Part shown: one piece after another, positions 27,077-53,020 of the stretch
Layout: each line of letters opens with the position of its first letter
Position numbering within the stretch: the first letter of the stretch is position 1
From: Axinella damicornis
Lineage: Eukaryota > Porifera > Demospongiae > Axinellida > Axinellidae
Assembly: GCA_963931865.1 (NCBI GenBank)
Contig: OZ007518.1
Location: 6,874,570 to 6,938,569, forward strand
Direction of reading: 5' to 3'
Length of the DNA stretch: 64,000 bases
Notes under the pieces: model-generated
Told to the model about the DNA's origin: nothing
Database searches by the model: none
The model's input: only the letters and a program-made list of their open reading frames with translations
Translations under genes and position numbers: made by a program

Positions 27077-30000
27077 TCACTGCACAGGACATATGTCCGG
27101 CATTTCGTGAGGGTTGAGTTTGGATTCAATTTCTTCAATCTCATGTGCAGGTAAGTGCTGAAGGTAGCCCAAGGCAGACTCACACAATTTGGCAAGTACG
27201 TCAAACATCTCTTTCAGTTCTGTCCCTTCCATTCGTGTTTCAGCAGTGATGGATGCCATCTGTTCCTCAGTGGCTATTCCTAATTTGTGCAAAGCAACAG
27301 TAGCCACTTCACTCATATTCTCAACGTCTTCAATGATTGTTCGATTTGATTGTCCTGGAGCTTGCGGTCGAAATCTCTGCGAAAAACCTCTCAAAAGAAT
27401 AAGTGGTAGTACATTCTTTTCACTCATTAATGTTTCAAAGTTGTCATAGTAAGCTGAAACCTGTTGGATCGACAAATGTGCAGACAATTTTTGGTCTTCC
27501 TCTGCCTTGATAAGTGTTTCGTTGTGTTTCCTTACCCATTGTACATGTCTATCTCTTTTCTTGGCTTGTACTACTGCAAACTCAGATTTGCAGATGTCTG
27601 ATCGAGCAGCACGTATTTCTGTGATGATTGCCTCGTGCTCGTCAGTGAGATCATGAGAGACGGTCACTTCCTTCAGTCCAGATTTGGGACTACTCCTTCG
27701 GAGTGAAAGGAAATCGGTGAAGGCCTCTGCAGAGTACGGATTGAATGAGAGATCCAGAGAGATGAGTGTTGAGTTGTGCTGCAGGCTCCTTCCAAAAGCA
27801 GCCACTCCATCAGGCTGAACATTACACTCAGACAGAGTAAGTGTTTCAATGGTGGAATTGATTTCGAAAGCCGCTGCCAGCAATGGGATAGCAGGTCCAA
27901 GCTGGTTCTGATCCAAGTGGACATGTTTGAGATGCTTTCCTGTTGTAATTATCAATATCAGGTACCATGTAAGATCTGAAGTGATCGAATTCTTACTGAG
28001 GTTTACAGTGGAGAGGCATGGCGGGTAAAGGGTACAGGTTGTGCTCACAACTGCTTTCAGAGCAGCATGCATGTCGGTATGAGCGGGTTGCCAGTTGAGC
28101 TGAAGATCTAGTAGTACAACAGTGTTGCAGGGAAGCTTTGTTATGGACTGACAAATGACCTTTGTACCCCGATGTGTAATCCTGTTTCCACCAAGATCAA
28201 AGTGGAGCTTCTTCTGTGGTTGATCTTTCAGATTTACAGTCAGCACACCTTCTACCTGAGAAAGAGTATTGAGCAAAGCTTTGACAATGTTGATGATTTC
28301 AGTGTCTTCCAAAAGAGACGAAACAAGTTGGAGGTAGACGTAGGTGACGTTTGGGCAACTCAGTCCCTGTGCAATGAACGTTCCTGTTCGTTTGCTCATT
28401 CCAACCTTGTCGTGTACAAAAGCAGTACTAGGAAGAGTTATGTGCAAATGGTTTGCTGTCCCAATCGGGAGGCTGACCTTTGTAGTGAAAAGATGTGCTA
28501 ATCCGACGGTTTGTGTTTCGTACACTGCATTGATTGCGTTCCAGAGGAGATAAGGATAGTTCCAAGTGGCTAGAATGGCTGTTGGTTTTAACACCATTAG
28601 CTGAAAGGTTTTCTTGCAGTGTTCAGCCAGGATATTCATAACGGGCTCACTCCTTTTGTTCAGAATTCCACTCAGAAACACAAGGGTACATGGACTGACT
28701 TTTACCAGCTGTTCCACGACAGAAATCTGGGTCTCTTCGGAACACATTCTCAGATGCTGTGCACCCAAAAACTCTTGCAACGACTGATGAAGGAATGCAT
28801 AGAGTACAGACTCCTTGCTCTCTCGTGTGCGGAATGATGTTTCTTTCATCAAACTAAGTGTATCCAAGGATTTAGGATCAATGTCAGCAAATACTTTGAT
28901 TGTCTCCATATCAACAACTGATTTACCATCTGAGATGCAAGCGTATGCCAGTTGGCACAGCAAGTGAAACTGTTTTGAGATTTGACATGGAAGCTTCTCC
29001 AATCCTTTCAAATGCTTTACTCCTAGGCTTGGATAGTGCATACGAACATGACGCAAGAGAACTGCTCGAATGAAGCACTCAAAGATGGCGGTCAAAGTGG
29101 TTAGTTTTGTCTCCAATATTGGTGCACCAACAATGCATATGAGAAATACAAGCATACTTGCATGAAGTGGGAGTTTGCAGAAGTCCACCACCACTGGTTG
29201 CTTGGTTTGGATGTCATGAAACGTGTCAAGAATGCCAGAGGGGTTGCTGGCATTAGCCTTAGAGAAGAACTGTTCAACCTGTTCTTGAGAGAATTGGGAA
29301 ATTCTCACCTTGGAAGAGATTAGAGGAAGGATCGCACTGGTTGCTGCCACACTGGGACGTGAGGTTACCAAGACACTAGCATTGGGAAGTGCTGCCGAAG
29401 GCACACCTTTCAGAATGTTGAGGACAAAGAGATTACCTTGTTCCTTCTGTGGTACCTGGTCAAGGCCATCGACTAAAATACCAACCTGTTTTCCTCCAGT
29501 GTGGACGATGGTGCCGGCTACAGCCTCCCTGACGTCATCATCTGGGTGAGGGATTAGGTCAGCGAGACAAGTAGCAGAAACTACTTTAGGGTCGGCAAGA
29601 TCGAGGGTAATGAGGAGATCCAGCTCTGGGAAGAGTTTTCCTTCTGCCCACTCCTTGCTGGCATACCATACGAATGTGCTTTTTCCAGAGCCAGCTGGGC
29701 CCTCTAGCAACAGGAATTTGGGTTTGCCCTGTGTGCCATGAGAGCAGAAGAGACCCTCTGGTGTAATCTCCCTCTCATATGTGGTGGATTGCATTCCTGG
29801 GGAGGTGTCAATCATGAGAGTAGGGCTAATGTACACACTATGCTCTGCCCGTGGCCAAGGGGTCACAAACGGTTGCTGCTTGTGTTGGTATGACCTCCTG
29901 AGGTGTTCTGCACAAACCAGAAGAGCAGTACGCTCTGGCCAATCTCGCTCGTACCTTTTTAGAGCTTCGACAAGACGATGGTAAGTTGCATTCTGGACGC

Positions 30001-30223
30001 CTGTTTGTTGTTGCCATTCCAAAAGCAGCTGACGTTTCTGCTGTTCATAGCTGGCTTCATGTTCCTGTTCTATTTCTTCCATTTTCACCTCATCAATTCC
30101 CAGATAGGGGGCCAAGATCTTCCATTCTTTGAGCTTCCCAACTAGGGTAGCGAGAAACTGGGCGGTACATGGTTGCTGGAGCTCACTTTCCGAAATACTT
30201 TGGAGCACAATGTCTGAAGCCAT
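27077..30223 (-). CDS. Death-NACHT-LRR receptor (NLR), intact single exon
   Basis: Uninterrupted 1048-residue frame, ATG at 30223 and TGA at 27079. Residues about 15-115 form a Death-fold domain (LKEWKILAPYLGIDEVKMEE, LEWQQQTG...ATYHRLVEAL). The NACHT ATPase follows: Walker A GPAGSGKST at 175-183, Walker B GILVDGLDQVP at about 248-258, and the sensor-like VLVTSRP near 285-291. FLHQSLQEFLGAQHL marks the end of the NACHT-associated helical part. Leucine-rich repeats run from about 670 to 860 (LHFDLGGNRIT, STVNLSKNSIT, HVHLDQNQLG, SLDLSFN). The last 180 residues are helical and unassigned. NLRs are cytosolic sensors that oligomerise on ligand binding; the Death fold would recruit a partner. The start aligns with that of the head-to-head paralogue. 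It resembles the expanded NLR sets described in sponges. The ligand is unknown. Confidence 0.92.
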   Translation of the reverse strand: MASDIVLQSISESELQQPCTAQFLATLVGKLKEWKILAPYLGIDEVKMEEIEQEHEASYEQQKRQLLLEWQQQTGVQNATYHRLVEALKRYERDWPERTALLVCAEHLRRSYQHKQQPFVTPWPRAEHSVYISPTLMIDTSPGMQSTTYEREITPEGLFCSHGTQGKPKFLLLEGPAGSGKSTFVWYASKEWAEGKLFPELDLLITLDLADPKVVSATCLADLIPHPDDDVREAVAGTIVHTGGKQVGILVDGLDQVPQKEQGNLFVLNILKGVPSAALPNASVLVTSRPSVAATSAILPLISSKVRISQFSQEQVEQFFSKANASNPSGILDTFHDIQTKQPVVVDFCKLPLHASMLVFLICIVGAPILETKLTTLTAIFECFIRAVLLRHVRMHYPSLGVKHLKGLEKLPCQISKQFHLLCQLAYACISDGKSVVDMETIKVFADIDPKSLDTLSLMKETSFRTRESKESVLYAFLHQSLQEFLGAQHLRMCSEETQISVVEQLVKVSPCTLVFLSGILNKRSEPVMNILAEHCKKTFQLMVLKPTAILATWNYPYLLWNAINAVYETQTVGLAHLFTTKVSLPIGTANHLHITLPSTAFVHDKVGMSKRTGTFIAQGLSCPNVTYVYLQLVSSLLEDTEIINIVKALLNTLSQVEGVLTVNLKDQPQKKLHFDLGGNRITHRGTKVICQSITKLPCNTVVLLDLQLNWQPAHTDMHAALKAVVSTTCTLYPPCLSTVNLSKNSITSDLTWYLILIITTGKHLKHVHLDQNQLGPAIPLLAAAFEINSTIETLTLSECNVQPDGVAAFGRSLQHNSTLISLDLSFNPYSAEAFTDFLSLRRSSPKSGLKEVTVSHDLTDEHEAIITEIRAARSDICKSEFAVVQAKKRDRHVQWVRKHNETLIKAEEDQKLSAHLSIQQVSAYYDNFETLMSEKNVLPLILLRGFSQRFRPQAPGQSNRTIIEDVENMSEVATVALHKLGIATEEQMASITAETRMEGTELKEMFDVLAKLCESALGYLQHLPAHEIEEIESKLNPHEMPDICPVQ

Positions 30224-31447
30224 TTCACCCCACTTCCATCAGTGGTTAGCAAGAAGTGACAAGTAGCTAGCTAGTATAGCTAAGAGAAATGTAGCTACCA
30301 ACTGAGAACAAAAATAGAACTTCTAAGAATAGCTTTTACTTAAAAGTACAAGCAAGGTGCTAAAAATAACCACCCTGAGTACAAAAATAAAATCAGTAAT
30401 GAATAGGTTTGAACTTGCGTGCTAATTATTTATTAAGCCTCCTACAAAGCCACAGAAGTGACGTACTGCAAGCAGCAAAAGGTGGGCGTGGGGCTAGGAG
30501 CGAGGCTAGTACTCACCCACTGTTCTCAGCTACTGGAGAAAACTTTGGTAAAATTATCTTTTCTCTGTTTATATAGAACTATAGCCTACTGACGTACATG
30601 CTGCACGCTTGCATAGATGATCAAGTGTCTAGCTACTGACCTAACAGTAGCTGAAGTAAAGGCCACGTCTCCTTGTAGCTAACTGGTACCCTTGATCCTC
30701 CCCTTGTGTTAGAGCATAGCAAAGCAGGTCAAGGTCCTACTTCTAGTTCTGCTGTAAGTCCATTTCAAAGTGAATATTTGCTGAGCCACTTGCCACTTAG
30801 TCATGCAGTCTGTCCAGCTCTCGCTCTGTGAGAGGTGGACATTTTAGTAGCTAGTTACCGTCAGCCCTGTCTCCCTTCAAGCCAGCCTCACACACAGGCC
30901 GGCATGAATATATGGAAAAGTGTCTGGTTTGCCTAGTCATAAATGTTTATTGGACACATTGGAAATCACAAAGTAGCTAGCTAGGTAGCTGTTGGTGATG
31001 ACTGAGCAGGGGATAGGCCGGGCATGCAGCAGCTCTATCAAATGGTTATTAATAGTCTTTCATGCAGTATAGCATTTAGTTACTAATACGAACATGTGTA
31101 CCTGGTCATGACTGCTGACTCAGCGTATAGAATGTAGCAATGCTAAACATGACTAACCTGTAACCCCAATTTTCAAGCAGGGCTGGGTGTAAAGACTTTT
31201 ATGCCGTTGCCTGAATGAAGACACTCAAACTGTAGAACCACTTACCTCATGAAGGGCAAGCCTCTTGTAATCTTTTTTTATTCAAGTAGAAAGAAGTCTC
31301 TTTGTTGTTGTTGGGTATCAAGTGAAGAAAGTGTGATGTGTCATTATTGATGCCACTAGCTATCTGTGCAGCAAGTATACTCAGACACCCTTAACTATTC
31401 TTATACCAGCAATTGCAACGTCACTCATCATTAGCTAGCTAGCTCTA
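30224..31447. promoter_or_regulatory. Left part of the NLR head-to-head intergenic region
   Basis: This lies upstream of the intact NLR. No gene is seen. Because the two NLRs diverge, any shared control would lie between 30224 and 33040, but I recognise no specific promoter element. Confidence 0.25.
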
Positions 31448-31935: not shown

Positions 31936-33040
31936 CTGTAACCACTTCAATTCCCTATATAAACCACGGCCACACCTAGCTACACTGCTATGAAACTTTG
32001 AGCCTTCTGAATTCATCTAAATTTTATAACACTTGATTGGACTAGTATCGTTATGCACATCAGCTGTACTAGTGCAAAATCACATATACCCTGTAGACCT
32101 TTAACTGTCATGATCAATTCCTAGAAACTCATGCAGATATAGGGTGGATTGTCCTCGGAGGGTATATCCAGGTTGTGTCCCTTCCACCACATGACCAAAT
32201 ATGTCATGGGAAATGTACATAACACAAGCCAGGGTGGATGTCCCTTCCACCACTGGACCCTATGACTCATGATCACTATCACAATAGTTATCACAACATG
32301 TGTAAAGGTCATAAGAGTTGAGATTCAAGACAAGTTCAGCTCCCAGGGGTAGCTCAGTATCAGAAGAAAATGCAGAGTAACTTCAGTCCCCCACATTTTA
32401 ATTTTGTAACCTGAATTATAGGGTCCAAGTGCATTCATACATCCTTCAGAACTGTATATGATATCCTCCACTACCTAGCTATTCTCTTAGTTATTTTCCT
32501 ACACACTTTGAGTTGACATGTAACACTGGAACCACTATAATGATTTTCAGAAACTGTCACCCCATGCATAGGTTTTGATATGTCATTATTAGATATACAA
32601 TCTCAGAACGCAAAGCCCAAAGGTGCCACACAAAACTGAAGGGTGCTCACATAACAGAAGAGTAGATTGAGTCATCCATACTGCTAATTTGACTAACGGT
32701 TCCATGGCTCAGTGAAAATGATAACTATGTATCCTTTTCTACAGTAATTAGTAGCCAGTCGGTACTAATCTAAATACCCAGTAGAAGACACATAAGCAAA
32801 TAGCAGATTAGCAACACGATTGCATATGTGTGAATGGCAGTTACTTAATTATTATGTGATCTGAGATCTTAGGCACTGTACTTGTGGTTGGGTCTGTGGT
32901 CACATGGAACCGTTAGCTACTGCCATTAATAGTCATTAGATCCTATGAATCCCTGATACAAGACTTAGTACATGTAGATGCTTGCATTGTCTCTTCACTG
33001 CAGTGCTGCAGACTGTGAATGGTGGCTCGCTGATCACTTA
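31936..33040. other. Right part of the NLR intergenic region
   Basis: No coding region is supported. GTGTCCCTTCCACCAC (about 32175) and ATGTCCCTTCCACCAC (about 32240) form a short diverged direct repeat. No promoter motif is identified. Confidence 0.3.
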
Positions 33041-35290
33041 ATGGCATCGCATTATATATTTCGTACGATTTCTGCAAATGAACAGGACTGCCCCTGCAGC
33101 AACGATGAATTCCTTGCTACTCTCGCCAGTCGTATAGAAAAATGGGAGCTTATTGCTCCATTTCTTGAAATTGATGAAGTGAAATGCCATGAGATAAGAG
33201 AAGACCTCAAGGGGGACTATCAGAATCAAAAACTTACGCTGTTACGAGTGTGGAGGCAAAAATTTGGTAGCAAGGCCACATATTGCAGACTTGCTCAGGC
33301 TCTCCAAAGATTTGAGCAGAGCACTCCGGAACAAAGCTTCATCAATAGCTGTGTGAAACATCTAAAGCAGTCTTATCTCTACAAACAGCCACCTTTTGCG
33401 ACTGTGTGGCCCGAAGCTGAACGCAATGTCTATATTAATCCTACCTTCCAAACATCTGGCCAATCACGAGCAATCCACTGCCCTAAAGAAATCAATGTAT
33501 CCAGTATTTTCCAACTCCCTGTAACAAGTAGTAAGCCCAAATTCATTCTGTTGGAAGGTCCTGCTGGATCAGGAAAGAGTACCTTTGTTTGGTATGCGGG
33601 AAAGAAATGGGCTGAAGGAGAGTTCTTTCCTAGTTTGGAGTTACTTGTTTTAATTGACCTGGCTAATCTGAATGTGCGACAAGCCTCATGCCTTGCTGAT
33701 CTTATACCTCACCCTGACAAGAAAATCAGGATTGCTGTAGCAAGTTGGGTAGTCCGTACAGGGGGAGAGCGATTTGGTATCCTAGCCAACGGCCTTGATC
33801 AAGTGCCCCATGCTGAGAGAGATGGTCTCTACATTACACGAGTGCTCAAAGGCTCTCCTGCTGTAGCTCTTCCAAATTCTAGCATACTAGTGACGTCGCG
33901 ACCTGAAGGAGCTGATCAACTGCTACCATACTTCTCTTTCCACATTAGAATCATGCCTTTCTCTCCAGAGCAGATCAATGCTTTCTTTTACCAGGCTGCA
34001 GAGGACCATCCCTCTGGTGACGTTGTCAAGCAGAAATTCCATGATATTCAAGAAACGCAACCAGCTATTATTGAATTCTGCAAGCTTCCACTCCATGCAG
34101 CCATCTTGGTCTATTTCATATGCAGAATTGGAGATTCCTTGCTTTCTGCTAACATAGTCACCATGACTGACTTTGTCACTCACTTTATCCGCAATTTCAT
34201 CCGACGGCACATTGAAGACTACTACCCCACTATGTCCAAGCCTCACTTCTTGAAGGGGCTTCCAAGGGATCCGGAAGTTGCTGGCCACTTCCAGTTCTTG
34301 TGCAAGCTTGCATACCACAGCATTAAAGAGGAAGTGATTGTCATGGATGAAGACTACATTGAATCAATCGCTGAAGATGGTGTAGATCCCGATCCTGCTG
34401 AGTTCTGTTCTCTGAGTCTAATGTGAAGTGAGCCCTATCCCACACTAGATGGTGGTGTTGGCTATCGATACAGTTACCTTCATCAAACGGTGCAGGAGTT
34501 TTTAGCTGCCTTTCATGCTTCAAAGTTGACAGAGGCTGAGCAGAATGCTGTTGCTGAAGAGCTTTTGAAAAGCAGCCCTCCAACCATGGTGTTTCTAGGT
34601 GGACTCCTGAAAGAGAGAAGCAAGCCAATTTTGAGTGTTCTCTGTGAACAGTTGATTCGATCTCTAGGAGATGAAAATGTGGAAGTAACTCTGTCAAACA
34701 AAGTTGATGATGTCACCAGTTATCCTGTGTTGCTGCAGCATCTACTCACAATGTCATTTGAAGCACAATCACAACCTCTCAGCCAGTATGTAGCAGAGAG
34801 AATATGCATCAATGGCAAGATAATTATTACACTGCCACCTCCGACTGTGCTGTCCGGGCCTGAGTGGATACCCTGCTTCATCTCATGTGCACTGCAGTGC
34901 CCAAAGGCTTCGGAAATCTATTTAAACCTAAACAATGCTACTCTTAATGACCCTGGGATAGTAACCCTCTTCAAAAGTGTGCAGCGTAGACTTCCTGATT
35001 CGTTAACCACGATCTGTGAACCTCAAAAGAAGCTGGTTGTTCTCCTAAGTGAGAGTCAGTTCACTCACAACGGCGCAGAAAGTTTCTGTCAAGCTTTGCA
35101 TTGCCTTCCACCTAACACGCTTACTTTCCTGGACCTCAGTGATAAGTTGCACCTGGACTCCACACATATTACAGGTGCACTCCTTGCTCTCTGCACAGCA
35201 GCCTTCACATGTCATGCACTTGTTGAAATTCACCTCAATGACCCATCGTCAAACTCCCAGTCACACACGTGGTATTTATACTATTGCTAA
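33041..35290 (+). pseudogene. Death-NACHT-LRR paralogue, broken by an in-frame stop and truncated
   Basis: The start at 33041 (MASHYIFRTISANEQ) aligns with that of the intact NLR; an upstream in-frame ATG at 32978 is less likely. The Death fold (ELIAPFLEIDEVKCHEI, ATYCRLAQALQRF) and NACHT (GPAGSGKSTFVWYAG) are clear. Two faults are seen. The Walker B first Asp is Asn (GILANGLDQVP against GILVDGLDQVP). An in-frame TGA at 34424-34426 follows LSLM, yet the same frame continues with family sequence (YSYLHQTVQEFLAAFHA) to 35290. It ends at LYYC, which aligns with mid-LRR WYLILI of the intact gene, so the last repeats and about 250 residues are lost. It is a probable pseudogene; stop readthrough is possible but does not explain the 3' truncation. 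Confidence 0.85.
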
Positions 35291-35639: not shown

Positions 35640-36330
35640 GATTGATGGCAAATGCTCACCACTGTTCATGGCATGCAGTCCAGCAGTGCTGGTCGATCAT
35701 CAGCTGTCTTGTGCTTCATGAATCCCCACAATGGGTGGCTCCTTACAGGCGCAGGCTTCTTGCCAGGAAGTTAAGGATTACAATCCTTTGTATTTCATCA
35801 ATTTCGACACCGCTTCGGAAGAACTGACCTGTTTGCGAGCATAGATGGTCAGAATCACTTGCAATATACATGTCATGCATTCAAGCCACAGCGTAGGTAT
35901 TTATTTAACAATGAAGCATAGCTAAACTGTATGCCCAGTTGACCGAACACATGCATGCACAGCCCAATCTTTAACGGGATGCGCAACATGGATCTATACA
36001 GAACACTGTCTTATATAGCTGTATGTTGTATGTCCACATGTATAACTGGTGCTCTGACAAGAGTAATTGCTGTCAACTTGTTGCTCTACTTTATGAGGCC
36101 CAACTAGCTTTGAACGTGTGACAATAGTTTGGTCTTACTAATACCTGAATACCAGAAGTGACAAAACACTTACTCTTTATTACATAGTTCGACTGTAGCT
36201 ATATAATCATAGACTCATTCCAATTAGGTAACAAAAAAACTCTGTACTGCAGTCAACATGCTATTCACTAAACTTGATGACTATTATGTGCTCACCATGG
36301 CCAATAACACCGTGTGAATCGTCGCAGTGG
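35640..36330 (-). pseudogene. Decayed 3' end of a third leishmanolysin-ITIH-C gene
   Basis: At 35660-35835 the minus strand matches the last exon of the two larger copies (FFRSGVEIDE, then a frameshift after IVIL). The sequence to 36330 matches the last intron of the 57-58 kb copy (GTGCTCTGACAA.GAG, TTTATGAGGC.CAACTAGC, GACAAAACACTTACTC). It stops just after the donor end of the penultimate exon (about 36295-36330, revcomp includes CACGGTGTTATTGGC). It is closer to the second copy than to the first. It is non-functional. Confidence 0.8.
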
Positions 36331-38227: not shown

Positions 38228-39932
38228 CTACTGCTTGAATTTGAAGTCATCAGAGAGTATATCGTTGACCAGGTAGTCCTGGTAGACTCCCTCAATCAGC
38301 CCTTCTCCCTGTGCACCATGGTTCATGGCAGTCCAGCAGTGTTGGTCATCCGCCGTTCTGGACTTCATGAATCCCCACAATGGGTGGCTCCTTACTGGCA
38401 CGGGCTTCTTGCCAGGAAGGATTACAATGCTTTTTTCTTCATCAATTTCTACACCACTTCGGAAGAACTGACCTGTTGTGAGCAGAGATGGGATGGCAAA
38501 GGTGCATAGCTAACATGGTATGCCCATGTAGCTAGTCAGCTGAGCACACAGCTCAAACTTTGTACAACGATGCACAACATCCGTATACAACACACCATCA
38601 GTGCTTTTGTCCTCCCATTGGCAGTGCTTTGACAGCTAGTGTGTGACATCACGTACATATTATGCATTAATTGGAGCAAGCCATACGTATGAGCTGGTGT
38701 AGACAATCCAATCACAATGAAGTATGCACAAGGTCAGGCTAAGCGAGGCATGAGGCATCAATCCAAGTGAGCTTGCTCTAACAGGAGGGTGACTGACACT
38801 TGTAGATACTCATGTGAGACTTGGTAAGATTATCTATTAGTGCATGAACGTGTCGCTTGTAATGTCCTTCAATTCTTGCTAACACTCTTGACCGGGAGAA
38901 ATCGTTATTGCTCCATTTTATGTGGAATGACTTTACACAATCAATGACACGTACTTACTTTTTCATTTCATGCTAGTGAGTAACAACAATAATTATTAAA
39001 TTACATGATTAGAGTTATGTTCTGAAGAGTTTAGCAATGAAAACGCTTTGCAATGCAGGCACCATGCTATTCACTTTAGCTAGACGTAATGACTGCTCAC
39101 CAATAAAGCCGTGTGAATTGTCGATGTCACTAGGTTGCCCCACACTCTGCCAAAATATTTCAAGGTGTATTCGAGTAAACCTGACGGTAAAGTGAAGACC
39201 AAAATCATCCAGACTGACGATCACACTGGGGTTATCTTCCATTTCCTGTCCACGAACTCGAGATACCGACAGTTTCCCGTTGTGGAATAGAATCCTCTTG
39301 ATGCTTTCAGCAGCTACAGGGGTTTTATCACCGATGCGAATCAGCCCAACTCTGCCGTCAAATGTGAGTTTGGTGTTACTGGACTTGCTATTGAATATCA
39401 CAACGCCCAGTGCGCCAATTCGAGTTGAGTTTTTGTTTCTATACTTGGCCACAAAAAGAGCGTTCATGAGGAGGTTCTTGTTGCTGATGAGGTTGTAGAC
39501 TGAGCCAATCTCTCCTTGTATCGAATAGCAGAACAGCTCATTGTTTGGCAGCACGATGCTGAAGTGGGGGTCACCTCCGGCCATCACTTCTGTAATTGGC
39601 ACTAGATTGTACGTAGAAAAGGAATCGTTGGGAGGTGATGAGGTGTGACAATCAGATAATCAAACAACAATTAATGAACAATTTTCATGCACAAATAAAT
39701 AAGCTGCTAAGTTCCTTACCTGCTGTTGTTACACGACCATAGCATGCAGCAGGCTCTGCAGTGGAAGAGCAATAGGAAGCTAAATGAATTGTCTGTATGA
39801 GTAACATTGTGTTAATGTCATTACTTGTGCTAACCTGTATCAGGACAGCTGCTACTATTATCCTGCAGGACAAAGACACAGATAGCTATATCAAGTCCTT
39901 AGAAGGCCAATTATCTGAGGTAAGACATTTTG

Positions 39933-39967
<35 letters not shown>

Positions 39968-42900
39968 ATAGCATCACTATTTCTGATAGTAGCTTACATC
40001 AAAAGTGAAGAGCGCCGGAAAAGGATACCCTGACCTACTTTTGTTCAGGAACTTCCATTGCAAGTAGGAAGGAGTTTGGGTGCAAGCTGTACGGTTCTAC
40101 CATGCCATGCTAATGATGAGGTCTGTGAGGGTACTATTGTTCGAGTTGGACGGCTGAGTCAGATGGGAAATTTGCCCCAGAGGTGTGGTATAACACTATT
40201 CCGTAGCCACACATCAATGTAATCACACAACATTAGTGACTGACTGTTGACATCGTTTCAGCCAATTATCTATTATCGCTATATTATAGCTAGTTTTGGT
40301 GCAGCTACACTGAGCAATTCATATCAGTATATAGGCTGGGCATATCTCAATCTCCATAATTGTTGATCATGAATCCTTGCTTTAGCAAAATTATATCTGA
40401 AAACACTTTGCCTTGGACTTTCAGACAAATGGAGTTGCCTTTCTAACAAGCATCAAAAATTATCTAAGAGGAGACTACTAAGAGGAGATTGTTTAACCCA
40501 CATTGCTGAGGCAGGCAGGGTTAATTTCAAAAGAAAAGGTATATGTGAACACTAAATGCATGCAGCACTTCGTAGGCCACAGGATTGTGGGCAGCGTGTC
40601 CCTCGCAATGAAGTTTGAACTATAGAATGAGTTGCTGCTTATTTGTCAAGCTGTTGCATGATGCATATTAAGCCACTTTCCCGGAATAAATGAACAGTGG
40701 GAGAAGATCTCTCTGGAGTGCTGTTTGATCCCAAGGTAACTGAAGCAGCTGTTTAATGTTCAATATCCATTGCACTTGTGCATGAAGGTTTCCAAGTAGC
40801 TAAGTTAAACACCAATCACAACTTACAAAACAGATCTGTGCACATGATGGGCAGATTAGAGAGCCTTGGAAACGTGTACTAGACACAGTAATATCCAGCA
40901 CCAACTGCATGGAAATGTAAGGAAATGCAGCAATTCGCAAATAGATGCGTGTCAATTCCTTACAGTAGGGGCATTTGAAGAGGATGAGGCTCGTGAGTTT
41001 GTAACTCAAATGTTCGACACATGCAGTCAAGTAGAGTGTGTTTTAGTAAGTCTGTTGTGGGAGTTAATGATACTCTTGGACATCTTAAATGCACTTATAT
41101 GAAGTGGACGTGAGACTTAAGCTTGATTATCACTCTCCCATGTAGCTAAATGGTTATTCACCAATATGAGAGTCACATTAATAATATTGTGCTACCATAA
41201 TAGGAGTGAATGGCAAAGGGGGATAATGGGCATGCGGTTAAATGGGTACAGCAACTGCATTATCACCTCTTCTCCTTCACAGTCACACTGAAACCACAGA
41301 TCCTGCACCTGAATCTTCACACTATTTGAAACCGAGCAAGTATGCTAATATACGAAGACAAAAAATGACAGTGAGTAAACCTGATAATACCAGGAAAGAG
41401 AAATTATTATGAAGTCAATTGGAAGAATCCATATGTTAGTATTATTAATTCAAGGGATGGTTACTATGGTGTACAAGAATACTGCCATACCTGGTAGCAT
41501 CCTCCTCCCCAGAAGCTTGCAGTTGTAGTAATTCCACCTACTGTTCTTGACCACTCCCTGCCATGCTCCACACAGCGAGAACCAGACCCATATGTTTCAG
41601 CTAAAACATTATCGGCCGGCTGTGCTGCTACAATGGAGCACTCCCTTAATGTGCCACCAATCTAGATTGGTGGCAAAATATTGCAACGGCAAATAGGCCA
41701 ATTAGCACCAGAAAAATTCTATGTAAACTGAAGGATGTGGAGTAAGTGAACAGTTCATATTGTGAATGAAGACACTGATGTGCACTCAGTTCTTGACAGG
41801 CATGATGCTGACTGAGAGATCATGCATGTCACAAACACTTGAATTGCATTTACGTACCGTGAATCGATCTTGAAAAGGGCAGAAGTCTGTAGAAAACAAC
41901 GATCCACCAACCGTTGGAGCAACGGTGCCGTCAAAATTCGCCCCATTGCTGCCAGTAAAATACTGCAAGGAAAATAACATTTACATGAACATTACGTATC
42001 AATCTCTAATAATTGCACATTCCACAACCAGGGTGTGCAGTGGCGCACTGGTCGAGTGAAATACTCAGCTCAGGCTCGATCTCTCCTGCATGGGTTTGAA
42101 TCCCACTAAAGCCCTTGGTTATTCTGGTTCGCATTAAAAAAGCTTTTCCCTTCCTTGTGTATTGGAGATGTGACATTCATGGTGTATGAAATCTGAACTG
42201 AACAAATGTGTAACTGAATGACCTGAAGCTAGTACTTGTTGTGACCTGTTGTGACCTGGTTGACCTGGTATATAGGGCTATCTTGGTTGCAGATCAACTA
42301 CCAAGAATTGTGCACACAAATAGAGCAGGACCTGACCACTAATGGTCCCAAAATTCGGTTAACAATAATAGAGTCAACCCAGGTACAACTAGCTCCACAA
42401 CCATGGCATTACTATGAATGCTACAAGAGTACAAGTGCAGCAATCCTTCAATTGCATGTGCTGTACAAGTGCAGCTGCACTTCTGTCATTCTGTAGTCCC
42501 TCTACAGCTATACGGTAGGTATGTGACTTGACTGATTTGTTTTCCCAACTACAAGTCTGAATTAGGGACAAGTCCTATAACAAGGATCTTTGTGTGTTGT
42601 GCTGTTGACTTGAATAAGTATTTGTTGCATGCAGATAATTGTTACTGGATCAGCTCTATTATGTGTTCTCCTGACAGACCTCAGTGTTTGTTAAGTTTGT
42701 TTGATCGATAGCATACCTAGCATAAAATTTAGCAGTTAGGTACATACAACGCTCAGGCTGAACCTGAGCTCCTGATTTGGTCTTACTGAATAGTCATGTG
42801 AGTTCACAGTGTGCTCCATTCTGGCTAGCCTCGTACCCAGGCCTTCAATCGCAATTGAAGGCCTGGCTGCCATGGGTACGAGGCTACATTCCGGCATGTT

Positions 42901-45900
42901 CGAAGGGGCACAGAACTAGTGTGATCGTTTAATAATTGGCTGCATCTCTGATGGGACATTCCACTATGGTTTTGGCCTCCTCAGGTGCAATGTTTCTTGG
43001 AATGAATGCACAAAATGTTTATTATAAATCAAGATTAAAATTATAACAGGCCCCATACGTGTATCTAATTTACCTGAAACTCTGATGGAGGTGGCGAAGC
43101 TCCAAGATCAACCAAGTTGCATACTGATACAATACTCCTGTCTGCAGTACACCCAAGTCGAATCGGAAACACACGCAAGCGATTGCAGAATGGAGCCAGT
43201 GTTGATTGACTGGGTAAGTAAGGCAAAGTATTTGGTGTTATTAAGAATCTATCAGCAGCTGTTATTATTTTGTGCGACACCTCAGCAGTTGTGTGTCAAT
43301 CCATTCCCCACAGCTTCCGTGAGCAAACCTACAGCCAGCATTTCTCCCCCATGCCAATTCTTCAGCCATAGAGTAGTTTGGAATGTACCACCTAGAAGTC
43401 CAAAGACAAAGCTTAATTCATGATTAACACACACTAGCTACCAAAATATACATCGTGGTGACCACAATTATTACACCCATCTTATTAGATTTGCTTGACA
43501 GTGCAAGCTAGTTATTTATGCAAATATAGCCCCGTTACACCAGGCATTTAAACTGGTTCAGGATCCGGATTAAACTAAACCGGATCGGTGTAAACGCTCT
43601 AATCTGGATTGGAAACCGGTCTACGTAGGATATGGCCATGGGTTGACCCGGATTGAATCGGGATTAGGATCAGATTAGGCCAGTTTGAGGTGCCAGCATG
43701 TAAACAGTTTCTAAGTGGATTATCTGCTGCACATTGAAGCTTTCAGTATTCATGACAAGTAGTCCAGCCCCACAGCCACAAGTTGTGAGAGAAGATTCAT
43801 GAGCTAAACTGGCTCAAAAGTTGCATGTGAGGGGGATCTTGTAAAGCAGCTAGGTGGATGTTGGGTGGGCTGAGAAATGTAACAGAAACAATACGTACTG
43901 TGATGGCACCTGTCTCTGTGGTTCAGGTGTTTCATATAAACCTTTCTGTTGTCATAAGCTACGTTTACACTACTAAACCGGATTACTTTAAACTGGATTA
44001 GAATCCGGAGTAGAAGTGTCAGCTGCAAATGAGAGTGTAGCATTAGTCTCACTAATGACAAATCTGAGAAATGAGAAAAAGAAATCTGCATGTCTGGCAC
44101 TATACTTAGCATAGCAAACTTCAGTTTATTAAGTCTATCAATTCCTAATTTTCTTGTCCGTTATAACAATGCTAGATATAGCATACTCAGAGCATGAATT
44201 TGAGCGTAACGAAAGATCGTGAAAGCCTTATCTCTATACACCCACTCTATTACAACATGCACTCAACAATCCTGTCTGAAGTGTGAGAATTGTGCTGGAT
44301 TTGGGAAAGAGACTTTGCATGTGTACTTATGGAACAGCATACCCACTGTCCTGAAGGAGTCCAAATGTAATTCTGGAGAATGGTGCATTAAACAAAGATA
44401 TTCCTGTCATTCCTTCATTCTGCAGGGAACAGCAAACCGTTATGATAAATCAGATAAGTGACAGGAATTGTTATTCAATAACTCAACGTTTGGATAAACA
44501 GTGAATTAATAAATTGATAAGGTTTCAGCAAGAGGAAGTAGTAACCAGATCAGCCTGAAACCCCAATACCATCATGCAGTAGGTTAGAGTTCAGAGAATT
44601 AATGGGTGGAAAGTGTTTACATAAAAAGGGTGTAAGGCTGTCAAAGGGATCAAGGACTGATTTCTACTCTCAATTCCAACTGCTTGCCACACATGCTACA
44701 CTGGGTATACAGTCCTCTACGACAGCTATAGAGTTGTTACTTCAATTTACCCCAAGCAACCGCTGTTCCCAGTGTGATGTTGCAGTGCCTGGACCACCTT
44801 GGTTCTCTACTTCAACTCCTCGAAGGGTGGAGCAGTTGTAGTGAATCATTGCTTGCTCCTGCACAAAAAGATCGTTGTAGCTATAGTATGTATATTATAT
44901 ACACACATTTACTCTCATGCTAAATTGCTAGTCCTTTGCAACAGTACGTTAAAACATACACAAACTGTGTACTACAGCTTACTATAACATTTGGTGTTAC
45001 AAGAAGTTGAACTTCATGATTTATAATTCCATTTCGTGTCTGCCAGTCAGTATACACTTCGGTTCTGAGAGTGTTGGTACTAGCAATCGGAAATCTGAAA
45101 AGAATTATTCATTCTGAAATAGCATAGTAATTACGCATGGCATCCAAACTCAATGAACAGGTCAGCTAGACAACACCAACACTGTGACTTAGATCATGAA
45201 GTGAGTATATGGTCGCATAGATTGCTTTACTCTACCCTGTGATAATCATTTCCTTTGCAATTCTTGGGTTAGGCTCTTGAAATACGTATTGGGTTGGTGC
45301 GTGAGCTAATACACTGGGCTTGGTTTAGGCTGTAATACACTCTGACACTTAACGGTTTACGTATACAACGGTTACATTACCGTGGACCAAAGAGTTGTTG
45401 TCTTTCTAGGAAATAAAGGCAATGCTAATGACGTAGAATAGATTGGCCATGCATGGTTTGTGTTTGGGTAGTGCACCCTTCCTTGCAGGTCACTTTTCTG
45501 GTGTAAAGAGTTCTCATTGATAGCTCTCGACCTCGGCAATCACATATCTTATAGCTTATGCGGGCCGGATGGCCCCAAGTTGTCCATATTATGGTGATAT
45601 ATCATGATACCTTTACAGGAAGATAGTGTTGCAAGATGGAGTGGAGTTGGAATACTTTTGAGTTACAGTACTGACCTTGTCATAGGGGGCACAAAATCTG
45701 CTGACAAGGGCAATACCAGTACAAGAATCTAGTTACTCTTGTTGTTGTGTGATGCAATTATGCATGCTGGCTATAGAGATTCATGATCAGTAACAAAATG
45801 AATACAGAATAATTTACCCAGAACCATCCAATGGTGGACGTCCAAACGTGTCTCTTGGAGTGCGGGGATCTCCAGCCTCATCACGGAAATATGCATACAA

Positions 45901-48900
45901 GAAAGAGCTAAAGCCCTGCATGAATAATATAATGATTAATAACCGTTTAAACATAATTCATTAGCAAACCATCCAACGAATAACTTTTTTTTCTTCTTTT
46001 TTTTTCTTCTTTTTTTACGAATAACTGCTGGACTCCCAAATATAAGGCTTGTGACTAGTATTTGACAAGCTTGCGGCAGGTAAACTTTCATAGGAGACTC
46101 ATCAGATTCAACAGATCAAGGTTCATGTAAGTATACTTCCATTTCTGGTTTACCCTATGCATGAAGCAACAGAGATTATTCCCCCTTCTTGTACCGACCG
46201 GCAGCCCATGCAACTAAATTAAATGCTTACTGTTATTCCTTGTTCTCCCATTCTGTTGCTCTCTGGAATGCTTTACCATCCTTTGTACATGCCTCTAACT
46301 GCCTGTCCTTGTTTAAACATGCATTATCTGAATTGATCTCACAGTCCTATGCTTTGAATCTTGACTGTTGACATGTGTAGTTTGTTAAACCTACGAAGAA
46401 GCCACTCAGGGGTACTAAGGTATGGCTTAGTAACGTAGATGGAATTAATATGGAATCGTATTGTCAATCCGTCGTAAAGTCTCCAGATTCTCCTGCATTG
46501 AAGGTGATCGGCAATGCAGAATGGAATGGAATAGACTAAAGAATCTGCAACTACTAATGAATTAATATCTTCATGGTTACAACTACATCAGGCATGCTGA
46601 GCTACGTAAACTTTGGGGCCAAGCAAAAATTGGGCTCAAGTCAGTGCATGCATGTGTAACTGATGTAGGCCTGCAAACTTTTATCGATCCTGGCACTAGC
46701 ATCCAGTTAAGGAATAGTACATTATTCACTGATGTACCTACAATTATAAAATTATACTAGTCTCGTTCCCAGACCCCCCTTGGAAAAATCGAGGGGGGTC
46801 TGGGAACAAGACTACAATTATACATGTTGGTCTTGAGAATTTGAAGTAACAGCAGTGATTACATGTACCAAGACAGGTCAGAAAATCCTGCCTATTTGTA
46901 ATAGGCTTCTGTTTTCCCTTTGAAAATAGTACATTGATGATTTAGGAGCTTTTGGCATAGTTCCTTTACATTCATGGTTGCAATAATACATACAATACAT
47001 ACCAGAGTATGAAGAACTTCATGTATCCCAGTTTCAATCATTTCCTGATCAGACTGACCATCGATCCGGGCAGCACAGAAATTTATTATTCCTGCAATTG
47101 GCCTGAAAAATATCAAGATTTGATTGAACTTCAATTCAATTGCAAGTACACAGACTGTTTATGATACGTATGACATGACTCTGTCCTATTGACTTGAAGG
47201 ATACTTTATAGCTTGATCAGAGGAGTCAGTTTACAACCATAGAGTGCGCACCCATTTCAAAGAGAGTGTAATTAACTATTAACACTTTCACCAGCAAGTG
47301 TACACACAGATCTGTCCCTTCAACCTTTCACGAATCTAATATTAGAAAGGTTTAAGCGAACGCTTAAAATTTTATCAATAAAGCAAGTCAACTAGTAGAC
47401 TTTTAGCCATGTATAAGTCCGTGAAAATTGTGCTTAGTTGAGAGGTGTTAATGGCCGTATCTCTCAACTGCTTGAGAATTCTTACATGTAAATGCAAACA
47501 TGCATGGAATTTGAACCCTGATAATTTGCAGCCTCCTAATTAACTGGGTTCAAATTCCACGGATGTTTTGCAGAATCTGATGTTTCTCACCTGTCTAGTG
47601 AGGACTCCAAATCACAAGACGTTGCAAACGCAAGAGTGTTGGGATTGGCACAGGGGATGGTTCCCACATACAGGATAAAGTCGGTAATGACTCCAGGCCC
47701 ATCAACTCCGACCGTTACACATGTATTGGAATCGCCATTGCATTGTACACATCGCTGAGTAAATAATAGAAATGACATTTTTCAGTGTTAGCCTTGTTCC
47801 CAGGCGCTCATATTACCAAACGCTTGGGAACGAGGCTAAGTCCAGTGTGTGTGTAGCTATATGTTAATAGACACTGGATAGATGATATCGTGCATGTTCA
47901 TAACACACTAACGTGTGTTATGAACATGCACGCATGTTATAAAGATAAGAGCTATAATATTCCATGATAGACGCTAATGTCAGTAACAACCATGAGGTGC
48001 CTCTGCGTATCTCAACAAGGTGAGCTAGAGGCATGTAAGATATGGGAATAGTCAAATGAATGCTATACGGTTTGAATAACGTGTTGACACCATACACTTT
48101 TCATGTATTGCAGAGGCCTCGGATTTATATATCTGTGGATAGAAAGAATGTACAGGAATCGGACTCATCTTTATTGCTGTGCAGACATTCAAGTAGTTGC
48201 TGCCATGATGCTAGGAAATAATGACCACTGAGACACACCAGTGATGTATATAAAATAAGCTGCGGCAATAATGCTATACCTAATGACATGAGAGCTAAGA
48301 AATTTCTCATTAACCACACCATACATTCTTGCCAGCTGGTTAGGTAAGTTAAGTGCAGAATGTGGACAATTTCAGACTTCATCATCAGTACGCTTCCATG
48401 ATAATCGAAAACAGAATTGCAACTTGCTGTCTAAAGTATTATGCAACTCGAAAATAATAAGGACTGACTCCTGCAGGAGCATATAACGAGAAGGAGCGTC
48501 CAACTGTGAGAACAAGTCTGTTCTAATTGTGCTTGTTGTTGACCATAATTATACGGCAAGTGGGAATCCGTAAAGTGATTTACAATTTTGGTCACAAACC
48601 AGCGGGTGGGCCAACACTTATTAGACTATGGGAAGGCCAGTTCTTGTTACCTAAAGAGGTTCCAAATAAGGGCACAACTAGGTTGCTGCTGTTTGAATGA
48701 ACAAGTTCTGAGTCTAAGTTGGACGCTCCTTCTCATTATGGGCTACTGCTCCTAACATGCCAGCCAAATTTGGGACCCTTATCTTCTGAAGGACCAACAA
48801 ACACTTGAAAGTGTCCAAAAGTTTGTGTGTCGGGTGTGCCTCAAACGCTGGGATTTATATTACTCGACTATGCTTGAGGACCTCATTATTCCCACCTTGC

Positions 48901-51860
48901 TGCACACAGCTGAAATTGTGCACTTTGTGCAACTATGTGCATGGGCTGTCCGTTGCTCCTACCGAAACTCTCTCACGAAGGGTACCACTTGTTTCGTTCA
49001 GGCATGTTCATGATCTCACCTTTGCCCGTCCATTTGCTCATACTAATAGAGACATGTACCCGATAGGATTTCTTTGTGGAACAACTTATCTAGTTCTGTA
49101 GTCCATTCTGGGACTTTCAAGCACTCCTTATCATTGTACCAAGTTAGCTAATATCCTTTTGTTAATTGGATGTATGTTCGTATTAGCTCTATATGCTACT
49201 CATGCATCCCTTGCTATATTGCAGCAAAAATAAAACATGCACCATCGTTCTTATATAAATTACAGTAGTGTAGTAGCTTACTGTTTTAGCTAAAGCAAAT
49301 TTGAAGGCAAGACTGGGAAGCCCTTTCTGATTGTACTATAGCTAAATACATACCAAGGCATACTTGTGGATTGATTAATCCTGAATTCTGAAGGCTACTG
49401 TAACCTATGGATCCAATCTGTCAATAGCCACATCCGTACACGGCACCTATCTCCAAAGACATTGCCGGTATAAATGACACCATCAAGCATGTTGCAGATA
49501 TGCAACGTTACGGCTTAAAGGGTTAATCTGTTAAAGCAGCATAGTTTTGTACGCCTAACCTTATAGATAGCTAACGTTCACAAGGTAACAACATCACTAA
49601 CAGTACCTTCAAGTGGTCTTCAGGGATTGTTATAACGCTACAGGTTGTTGTAGGTTCACACTGCTGTACACATTCCCGTACTGCTCCAATCGGAAGAAAA
49701 AAGGTACCACCCACACAGTCTCTACAGAATGCAAGTTGAGAGGATCACTTGAGGGACATAACAAGAGCTGTACGGTGTAGTGTATAGGTATCATTTATTG
49801 ACACATCCTAAATACCTATACTGTACAGTGGGGAATTTTTCATGCATGATACTATCATCCAATATTTTCACAGACGGATCACCGCTCTACACCCTAGAAG
49901 ATAGTGCTCTAGCTAGTGGTTCCCACACCAATGTAAGTGAGGGTTTATATATATAAGACTCCCTTTAACAATCTATCACATCTTTGCCAATTAGATGAGT
50001 CACTTAATCAATCTGTAAACGATCACTCCCCTGATTACTATTACAGTTGACTGTAGTAGAATCTATCTCCCAGACTGGAGTAGACCAGGTATACCAGTCA
50101 CTTGCAAGTGATAATAGAGAGAGCCCATTTCTCTCTTTGCACGCGAAGTGCACATTTATGTGCACACGCAATTCTTCCCGTAACAGCAAGCCACAGAAGC
50201 CACTACCTATGGCCTTATACGGAAGGTAGGGGCATCCCCTATCAATACCTGGCTTCTGCTACGCAAAGTGCTTCAACCGGAAGTACACCGGTGTGTTGTC
50301 TATCGCGCAAAAATGGCTGCCAATGAGATGAGCGTTCCGTGCGTCAAGAAGTGATCGATGCGAGTTTTTCGCCCAGTGTGTAAATGCACAAGGCCGTCTC
50401 AACCACAGTTGCTCGGTTTCTCACCGCCTCAATCCCGGGTAGACGACATCCTGGTGGCTTGAACGGACCGAGGTATGGGCAAGAATCAGCAAGGTAACGA
50501 GATAGCTACTCACAGCAGCTATAAGAAGCTTTGGACTACTATTTAAGGCTCTCTTTGTGTCTAGCTACATCTAGCAAACAACACCTCAAGCATTTCGAGT
50601 AGCCAGAAGCGTTATCAATTATCCAACGCAAAACGCTTCGCAAATTAATAACGCTTCATTATGATGTCATTATTGTCGCGTGCAAACTTTGAATGGGCAG
50701 GCCAAGACTATAGTCCCAAAGCAATCTTGTTAATTTCACTAATTCCCTTACCTTTCAAGCAGTATTGGGGCTGTAGCTGGAATGACTGTCAGGGCTTCTT
50801 CAAAGAAACTTTCCACCACAGGCATGATATTATTCTGTAGAGCATGGATTTCAAAAAAGTTAGATGTCAGTCTGAGTGCTACTGTAGACACCTGTTAGCT
50901 ATACGTGATGTCAGCTCACGTGGCTGAATCTGAAAATTATTAACTGATAAGAGCGGTTTATTTCCTATAAGCCATGCTGTGTAGCAGACTTGCATTAGCT
51001 ACTGTTTGCACATACATGAACCAGCTCATGAAATGATGGGTATCGTATATCGTTGTTCAGCTACCAACCGGACTATCATTCCATCCATGATCACTATTAT
51101 TATCATTTGTTGCACTAGGTATTGTTTGCATGGTTTAATATAAGGGTCTATTGATAAGAAGTCTTTGCACCTTTGGAAACAGTACATAAAGCTACACTGC
51201 AAGTACAAAAGATTCCAACCCATATACAAACTCACCTGGATCCTGTTTCTCTGGGTTACAGTGAGCCTGTAGGGAAGGGGAAAGTAATGATTGGGTTAAC
51301 CCAGACAAGACTACCACATGCTCCTCTTACCCATCCACACTGCTGTCATAAAAGACTGAAATCCTGAAAGGTGCAAAGACAGCAGATTGCCTCTTCACCG
51401 GCTGCCTTTCATTACCTATCTGCACTCCAACTACCATCTATGATGTGTATGCATAATAAGTTATTCAGAAGTGACAATAATCAATAGCAAATACAATACT
51501 ACATTCACTTAGCTGCAGGGTAGGAGTAATATTAATCTGGTATGTATGTATCTCTGCTGACATGCAGTGGCAGTATAATGATCACAACAGAAGCACAATG
51601 GGAAATTCACCTATACCCATGCACAAAACGGACCGAAAGCAACAGCATGCTGAGACAGTTTAGAGGCCTTCTCCATGACTGATTCTTGTTGTACTGTGCT
51701 GAGTTATAATTGTTAGGTAAAGTTCAAACTGTTGATCATAAACATAGCCTACGTATACCTTGGGATTTCTTTCGTGGATGCATTGGAAGTCCTCAGCTTC
51801 AGTACATGTAATCAACACTATCAAAACAGCACGCAGCAGGAGAGAAGATACACCAGCCAT
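38228..51860 (-). CDS. Secreted leishmanolysin-type (M8) metallopeptidase fused to an ITIH C-terminal domain
   Basis: Nineteen exons are placed on the minus strand: 51759-51860, 50752-50834, 49607-49721, 47591-47754, 47003-47102, 45818-45915, 44983-45094, 44751-44858, 44343-44419, 43281-43391, 43074-43209, 41858-41962, 41491-41661, 41267-41344, 40827-40904, 39835-39862, 39720-39755, 39101-39601 and 38228-38472. All phases agree and give about 815 residues; one N-terminal exon near 51.2-51.4 kb may be missing. It starts with a signal peptide (MAGVSSLLLRAVLIVLITCT). M8 features are LAFATSCDLESSLDRPIAG, the zinc motif HEVLHTL|GF split by an intron, TSHWEQR (third His), NEGMTG (Met turn), DSGWYIPNYSMAEELAWG, and many Cys. 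From residue about 568 it becomes GGDPHFSIVLPN...SHGFIGQFF...HCWTAMNHG, the C-terminal domain of ITIH proteins, which in vertebrates ends near the hyaluronan-linking site. It is likely a secreted zinc protease; the fusion is inferred from phase and from the paralogue. Confidence 0.85.
39936..39965 (+). repeat. Poly-G run of 30
   Basis: Uninterrupted G run in the intron between the 26-residue CPSC exon and the 9-codon linker exon of the first metallopeptidase gene. The same site in the second copy has only GGGGGG, so it expanded in one copy. Confidence 0.9.
42030..42235 (+). mobile_element. tRNA-derived SINE, copy 1
   Basis: An A-box-like TGGCGCACTGG at 42041-42051 and a B-box GGTTTGAATCC at 42093-42103 lie about 60 bp apart, as in a tRNA with a long variable arm. 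A tail ends in GAAATCTGAACTGAAC. It is not a functional tRNA: the acceptor stem does not pair and the sequence runs on. It lies in the intron between the CNLVDL exon and the YFTGSNGAN exon of the first metallopeptidase gene. Confidence 0.65.
42828..42890. repeat. Hairpin element, CCTCGTACCCAGGCC type
   Basis: GGCTAGCCTCGTACCCAGGC then CTTCAATCGCAATTGAAG and the inverted GGGTACGAGGCTAC. It lies in a metallopeptidase intron and is a member of the window-wide hairpin family. Confidence 0.75.
43525..44010. mobile_element. Possible MITE with AACCGGATT-rich ends
   Basis: Left: TTTAAACTGGTTCAGGATCC and ACTAAACCGGAT. Right: inverted-like TAAACCGGATTAC and AACTGGATTAGAATCCGGA. The unit AAACCGGATT repeats in both orientations. 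It lies within the intron between the NEGMTG exon and the WYIPNY exon. Element boundaries are uncertain. Confidence 0.4.
45976..46026. mobile_element. Pyrimidine tract flanked by a 10-bp direct repeat
   Basis: The sequence ACGAATAACT occurs on both sides of a 31-bp T-rich tract (TTTTTTCTTC units). A target-site duplication around a poly-T tract is what a fully 5'-truncated retroinsertion leaves, with the tail read on the opposite strand. It lies in a metallopeptidase intron. Confidence 0.55.
46140..46375 (+). pseudogene. LINE 3'-end fragment (non-LTR retrotransposon)
   Basis: RPAAHATKLNAYCYSLFSHS then VALWNALPSFV and SLFKHALSELI match the pattern at the C-terminus of many LINE polyproteins (a conserved WN.LP box, then SL..FK..L). 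It ends at a stop at 46371. The rest of the reverse transcriptase is absent. Confidence 0.6.
46757..46815. repeat. Hairpin element, AGTCTCGTTCCCAGACCCCC type
   Basis: CTAGTCTCGTTCCCAGACCC, a loop, then the inverted GGGGTCTGGGAACAAGACTA. It lies in a metallopeptidase intron. Confidence 0.8.
47789..47840. repeat. Hairpin element, AGCCTTGTTCCCAGGCGC type
   Basis: TTAGCCTTGTTCCCAGGCGC, a short loop, then the inverted CGCTTGGGAACGAGGCTAA. It lies directly upstream of the exon encoding RCVQCNGDSN. Confidence 0.8.
47890..47937. repeat. Perfect palindrome, arms of about 20 bp
   Basis: GTGCATGTTCATAACACACT and, after two or fewer loop bases, ACGTGTGTTATGAACATGCAC. It lies in a metallopeptidase intron next to the hairpin element above. 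It may form a cruciform. Confidence 0.85.
48780..49150 (+). pseudogene. LINE 3'-end fragment, second
   Basis: LESVQKFVCRVCLKRWDLYY then LEDLIIPTLLHTAEIVHF follows the L..VQ+.A.R......YS..L..L..P.L..R pattern of the region after the LINE reverse transcriptase. RISLWNNLSSSVVHSGTFK follows in another frame (WN.L box). It contains stops. It lies in a metallopeptidase intron. Confidence 0.6.
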
Positions 51861-52528: not shown

Positions 52529-52610
52529 AAGCAGTGTTGGGGCTGTAGCTGGAATGACTGTTAGGGCTTCTTCAACAAAACTTTCCACCGCAGGCATGAT
52601 TGCATTCTGT
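52529..52610 (-). pseudogene. Decayed duplicate of metallopeptidase exon 2
   Basis: The minus strand reads NAIMPAVESFVEEALTVIPA, matching NNIMPVVESFFEEALTVIPA of the real exon at 50752-50834, but the donor GTAAGG is replaced (TTAGATTGC). Flanking sequence at 52490-53010 also matches 50740-51190, so a segment of about 0.5 kb with one exon was duplicated upstream of the gene's own start codon. Confidence 0.8.
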
Positions 52611-53020
52611 AGTGCATGGATAATATAAGAAATAATTTTATGTCAGTCTGAGTGCAACTGCAGACACCTGTTTGTACAAGTGTATGTGATGCTAACTCGC
52701 GGGCTGAATAAAACTAATATAGCTATATAAGAACTGTATATCCTTGTTCCTATCCCATGCAGTAGTAGGAGAGAAGTGGCTTAGCATTATCATTTGCGGA
52801 TGCATGTACTACCTCATGAAATGATCGGTATCGTATATTGTCGTTTACCAACCATACTATCATTCCATACATGACCATCGTATATATTTGTTCACGATTA
52901 TCAGTCATTGCACTGATAGTAGTATGGTTGAACTTGGCTGTGTGGTTGGAAGGGTTCACAGTACTGAAAAGATACTGCTGAGTTCCATGCACCTTTGCAA
53001 AACTAAGCACATACCGCATA

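Follow-up and report, generated by a model that had tools for sequence, protein, structure and literature searches.

In a 64,000-nucleotide window of the Axinella damicornis genome (contig OZ007518.1, positions 6,874,570 to 6,938,569), the minus strand between window positions 51860 and 38228 carries a gene whose product is a predicted secreted leishmanolysin-type (M8) zinc protease, joined at its C-terminus to a domain of the kind that ends inter-alpha-trypsin-inhibitor heavy chains (ITIH). As an explanation of the whole, we favor, with a probability of about 0.66, a protease whose C-terminal tail is predicted to have the fold of a VWD domain and is likely to cut its own backbone at an Asp-Pro bond that is invariant among its relatives. 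The earlier note on this DNA had proposed a fusion of an M8 peptidase with a matrix-linking ITIH C-terminal domain, and knew of no such protein. The fusion stands, and its parts are known; the combination appears to be undescribed, as none was found by literature searches of top-ranked, open-licence papers. The linking role is not supported: ITIH heavy chains lose the corresponding domain, which is a pro-domain (PMC7170535). A VWD-fold, likely self-cleaving module is the better reading of the tail, given its predicted structure.

All coordinates are positions in the window, and the splicing of what we call the M8-tail gene is predicted from genomic sequence. The model has 21 exons (847 codons plus stop), GT-AG boundaries at 20/20 introns, and phases that run unbroken from the M8 part through a 28-nt and a 36-nt exon into the tail, as the earlier note had read them. 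Exon 1 (51759..51860) encodes a hydrophobic N-terminal leader, by eye a predicted signal peptide, and a pro-region with QCIH, which we take to be a cysteine-switch-like motif; the exon is retained in a tandem copy of the gene. The pro-region passes into the start of M8 in exon 2 (51331..51437), which has 99% identity with that copy, and M8 continues through exons 3 (51236..51266), 4 (50752..50834), 5 (49607..49721), and 6 (47591..47754), in the last of which the Pfam match starts. The zinc motif is rebuilt across intron 7, also as previously noted, with HEVLHTL in exon 7 (47003..47102) and its remainder, GFSS, in exon 8 (45818..45915). Exon 9 (44983..45094) is followed by exon 10 (44751..44858), with SHWE and the third zinc ligand region, exon 11 (44343..44419), with the Met-turn in NEGMTG, and exons 12 (43281..43391), 13 (43074..43209), 14 (41858..41962), 15 (41491..41619), and 16 (41267..41344), the last in the M8 C-terminal domain. 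The Pfam M8 model ends in exon 17 (40827..40904; GSLICPSCAQICF), the exon with CPSC, whose end at 40827 agrees with the earlier note, as do the lengths of the two mini-exons: exon 18 (28 nt; 39835..39862; DNSSSCPDT) and exon 19 (36 nt; 39720..39755; EPAACYGRVTTA, or ERAACYGRTTTA in the tandem copy). Exon 19 ends in phase 1, and beyond an intron of 118 nt the tail is entered in phase 1 by exon 20 (39101..39601), which encodes GGDPHF and the larger share of the predicted VWD-fold domain. The predicted self-cleavage bond, Asp610-Pro611, is encoded by gac ccc at 39567..39572, and exon 21 (38228..38472) supplies the tail end (GQFF ... GEGLIEGVYQDYLV) and the stop.

The protease assignment is strong. 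Peptidase_M8 (PF01457) matches residues 158-582 with 199.5 bits against a cut-off of 21 (E 1.2e-58), bearing out the domain that had been read from motifs, and it is the only Pfam family matched at a meaningful score; neither VIT nor vWA was matched in the M8-tail gene. The sole PDB match is leishmanolysin 1LML (E 8e-30), with which HExxHxxG (HEVLHTLGF), the later His (SHWE), and the Met-turn (EGM) align in register. The M8 match, HExxH, downstream His, and Met-turn are shared with the metazoan leishmanolysin-like peptidase (LMLN/invadolysin), and proteolytic activity is predicted by homology. The closest named proteins are from sponges, the best M8 relatives being P0124-P0126 of Halichondria and P0128 of Amphimedon, plus P0127. 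After CPSCAQICF, the two mini-exons most likely encode the M8 C-terminus, since P0124-P0127 have a similar continuation past CPSC, CPxxEPAxCxG (DDLESCPSAEPAACPGRI in P0125). These relatives differ from the window protein in what comes next: EGF in P0124 and P0125, Kunitz in P0126, and, by eye, a hydrophobic stretch in P0127 and P0128 that is GPI-like (resembling a glycosylphosphatidylinositol signal) and likely a membrane anchor in some relatives. DPHF or DPHY occurs in 0/111 M8 matches. P0126 is itself a Halichondria M8 protease with a Kunitz inhibitor domain at its C-terminus. Another M8 paralog of Axinella (contig C11, L027 ~3360-3695) has the mini-exons and then a Cys-rich stretch that by eye resembles the pre-tail repeats of Dysidea P0005.

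The tail, counted from the Pro of DPHF, is 237 residues long, close to the ITIH pro-domains of 239 (HC1) and 244 (HC2) residues (PMC7170535). With thresholds as loose as E 10, Pfam matches the window tail neither to ITI_HC_C (PF06668), which the earlier note had named as a check on its reading, nor to VWD (PF00094); sequences in the PDB, searched to the same E value with the tail and with a 4-row profile of it, likewise gave 0 matches. The tail is placed with the ITI_HC_C family because its relatives match PF06668 and because of its fold. PF06668 was matched by 20/121 tail relatives at E<=0.5 (best P0025, E 4.1e-6, at the cut-off), and in P0014 the match covers residues 20-188 of 189 (E 0.064). 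PF00094 was absent among the 25 families listed, of 58, for the 121 relatives. The predicted fold is a beta-sandwich that matches solved VWD domains in a structure search, the models being the tail of relative P0008 and window exon 20 alone, without exon 21. No ITIH C-terminal domain was among the solved structures listed in the fold matches, and the kinship with ITIH is thus by the sequences of relatives.

Asp-Pro-His stands at the domain start in both M8-tail genes and in 118/118 relatives covering the motif (3/121 do not cover it), and a later Gln is near-invariant (119/121). Across the relatives, conservation at the motif positions D, P, H, and F reaches 4.3 bits, and at the third position ahead of Asp and everything farther upstream it stays under 1.6 bits; the upstream columns include intron read-through, and their low conservation is weak evidence. 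In the window protein there is no Cys in the 17 residues preceding Asp610. The tail alignments comprised 121 of the 123 proteins found (A2; P0001 and P0002 left out) and the window exon with 99 of the relatives (A3).

The contig also carries a tandem paralog (C14; 57434..64000 on the minus strand for its 3' part, the remainder, which is most of it, lying beyond the window to ~6948908) that keeps all 21 exons and their splice sites in an open frame of 848 amino acids. This repetition of exons, splice sites, and open frame suggests that the M8-tail gene is more than a chance arrangement. The ratio of nonsynonymous to synonymous change (omega) between the copies is 0.44 (95% bootstrap 0.25-0.76; synonymous divergence, dS, 0.065) over residues 1-577 and 0.35 (0.24-0.51; dS 0.39) over the tail. 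Taken in smaller pieces, residues 1-145 give an omega of 1.14, from 12 changes only, residues 146-483 give 0.40, and the 22 codons of the mini-exons give 0.69. Down as far as ~41.4 kb, most of the DNA is 81-94% identical between the copies, with one piece at 72%; past that point the identity is 71-81%, except for exon 17 at 91%. The halves of the genes thus differ in divergence, the kind of pattern that gene conversion or exchange produces. Two other copies are decayed, one frameshifted (C9) and one partial and broken (C3), and the order of M8 followed by tail recurs at three loci, the two tandem genes and the broken C9 copy. Fragments lie around these genes as well: an exon-4-like remnant upstream at 52529-52612 (82% amino acid identity), a last-exon-like remnant with stops downstream at 35674-35859, and, inside the spans of both the C14 tandem copy (L002 4219-4467) and the C9 copy (L004 5913-6167), a plus-strand copy of the last tail exon, which is likely older than their split, as both spans contain it.

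The tail belongs to a large sponge family. A single-sequence search gave 3 matches at E<=1, all from sponges and 0 with M8, and a profile search of proteins of similar length gave 396 at E<=10, of which the best 120 are listed. The tail is 36-49% identical over 90-97% of its length to a Dysidea 'ITIH H3-like' protein and to Halichondria LOC135336475 and LOC135347821. In these sponge proteins the partners are Calx-beta, EGF, Sushi, Reeler, SRCR, and, by eye in P0005, Cys-rich repeats, rather than a protease; Peptidase_M36 and HRM matches on P0002 coincide with its Sushi repeats, and we did not take either for a partner.

Nor is the domain unique to the M8-tail gene within Axinella: a genome search with the tail gave 111 matches, which by eye resolve into ~47 loci, some with stops (46 of them marked by a match across the start of the tail, and one being the C3 copy, which is split and bears stops). 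PF06668 alone misses these loci, its genome search giving one match (E 0.26, with a stop) away from them. Partners were read by tblastn with nine queries at 26 loci and by Pfam on 8 hand-picked upstream sets of open reading frames at 5 of 14 loci, and at the loci examined they include Calx-beta, EGF, SRCR, and an upstream VWA_4. Of the five loci, Pfam found VWA_4 at one, Calx-beta at three, with the score above the cut-off in two cases and under it in the third, and nothing at the last. Open reading frames of vWA type precede tail exons at L012 (C14:7362k; VWA_4 by Pfam) and L020 (C14:7888k; by eye), a candidate ITIH-like order without a VIT match. The 16 VIT matches in the genome all lie >1 Mb from tail loci, and none of the 13 VWD matches is at a tail locus. 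Of 13 M8 loci (one weak; read by eye from 65 match rows), 3 lie beside a tail.

The self-cleavage that we favor would follow a known route. VWD domains break GDPH at the bond from Asp to Pro with no protease needed; in FCGBP, D-to-A, D-to-N, and H-to-N changes block the cleavage and mutation of a Gln weakens it (PMC10880436). The tail resembles such domains (RGMB, FCGBP, MUC2) in its predicted fold, in the position of the motif at the start of the sandwich, and in Asp, Pro, His, and a later Gln; it differs in lacking a PF00094 match and a Cys tie just before the motif. In RGMB, residue 169 is presumably the first residue after that protein's own cleavage. ITIH3, 5, and 6 likewise carry GDPH inside a predicted VWD-like domain (PMC10880436), as the tail does at its domain start, and the M8-tail gene departs from the ITIH heavy chains in having a protease in front. 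Within the secretory pathway, the Asp side chain would attack the carbonyl of its own backbone, as in VWD domains, with help from the His that follows and probably from the near-invariant Gln. Cleavage of Asp610-Pro611 would free a mature protease with a C-terminal Asp (...AGGD), and the tail would be shed or loosely retained.

The cut tail might instead stay in place. In FCGBP D10, the piece before the cut remains bound, and the cleavage is said to stabilize the domain (PMC10880436), and it is domains of this type that the predicted tail fold matches. Both points weigh against release and toward a VWD-fold domain that is cut yet still attached, a self-stabilizing, binding, or folding module from which nothing is released or linked; we regard this as possible, though clearly the less probable outcome. 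The pre-motif strand of FCGBP is tied by a disulfide (PMC10880436), whereas the window protein has no Cys in the corresponding stretch, and release of the tail therefore seems likelier here than in FCGBP; the drop in conservation before Asp points the same way, weakly. It is improbable that the tail is instead a matrix- or hyaluronan-binding adhesion domain that stays on the protease, as the kinship to ITI_HC_C and the presence of ITIH heavy chains on hyaluronan might suggest. The ITIH counterpart is removed, and the bond is made via the C-terminus left behind (PMC7170535); hyaluronan binding by the tail was accordingly not favored. A genome search for the Link module (Xlink) gave no match, with the control also silent, so that this is no proof of absence.

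The joining of the two parts could also be questioned, for most tail loci in the genome have no adjoining M8, as expected if the M8 gene ended at another exon and the tail exons were skipped or formed a separate gene. We consider this quite improbable, as intron 19 spans 118 nt, the phases join across it, and the M8-tail order is retained in two tandem genes and the broken C9 copy. Translation that read on past exon 19 would meet a stop after GKELSSLFICA (open reading frame 39685-39885), which is too short a stretch for a usual GPI signal. A separate tail gene with its own start is disfavored as well: where the window gene has MAGGDPHF, the tandem copy has VTVGGDPHF and so lacks the Met ahead of the motif. 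The broken C9 and C3 copies show that the region duplicates and decays, which would suit an assembly error or a recent pseudogene; with both C14 copies open end to end, omega below 1 for M8 and tail, and the order found at three loci, this is the least credible explanation.

Since relatives end in a hydrophobic stretch, EGF repeats, or Kunitz, some other C-terminal module likely stood where the tail is now. Introns of phase 1 are a sign of exon shuffling, and a candidate phase-1 acceptor lies ahead of 19/20 tail starts, although other phases are also possible in some rows; the tail was likely swapped in by phase-1 exon shuffling, altering the placement of the protease.

A last and speculative step would extend the self-cleavage by analogy with ITIH, whose pro-domain is removed as the heavy chain is esterified via its C-terminus to chondroitin sulfate (PMC7170535): a hydroxyl of a glycan might receive the activated Asp, and the protease would then be anchored in a chondroitin-like matrix. 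Such bonding is possible in so far as the genome has nine strong matches to the chondroitin-synthase family (CHGN, which we take to cover chondroitin polymerases). Pfam finds in the M8-tail gene no vWFA domain, whose metal site is involved in the later, TSG-6-catalyzed transfer to hyaluronan (PMC7170535). That an M8 enzyme is ester-bonded to sugar via its own tail strikes us as rather unlikely; in that case the tail family would be a general means in sponges of attaching ectodomains, among them Calx-beta, EGF, SRCR, vWA, and protease, covalently to glycans, and would be either older than ITIH or parallel to it.

If the self-cleaving reading is right, this would be, to judge from our literature searches, the first M8 protease whose VWD/ITIH-type tail cleaves itself. 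It would have given up a C-terminal module, likely a membrane anchor in some relatives, and gained a processing module in its place through phase-1 exon shuffling. The tail would belong to a large, little-noticed sponge family linking ITIH C-terminal domains, through the sequences of relatives, to VWD domains, through predicted fold. The origin of the ITIH pro-domain would then become testable, as would the question of whether covalent bonding of protein to glycosaminoglycan predates vertebrate ITIH.

Elsewhere in the window, a weak Transposase_21 match, slightly below the cut-off, lies at 12602-13123 on the minus strand, and overlapping frames at 6401-7722 on the plus strand encode a stretch that resembles coiled coil and matches Alanine_zipper, and after it a protein kinase domain. 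Near the protease, two Death-NACHT (NLR-like) open frames lie in opposite orientation at 27080-30238 (minus strand) and 32978-34423 (plus strand).
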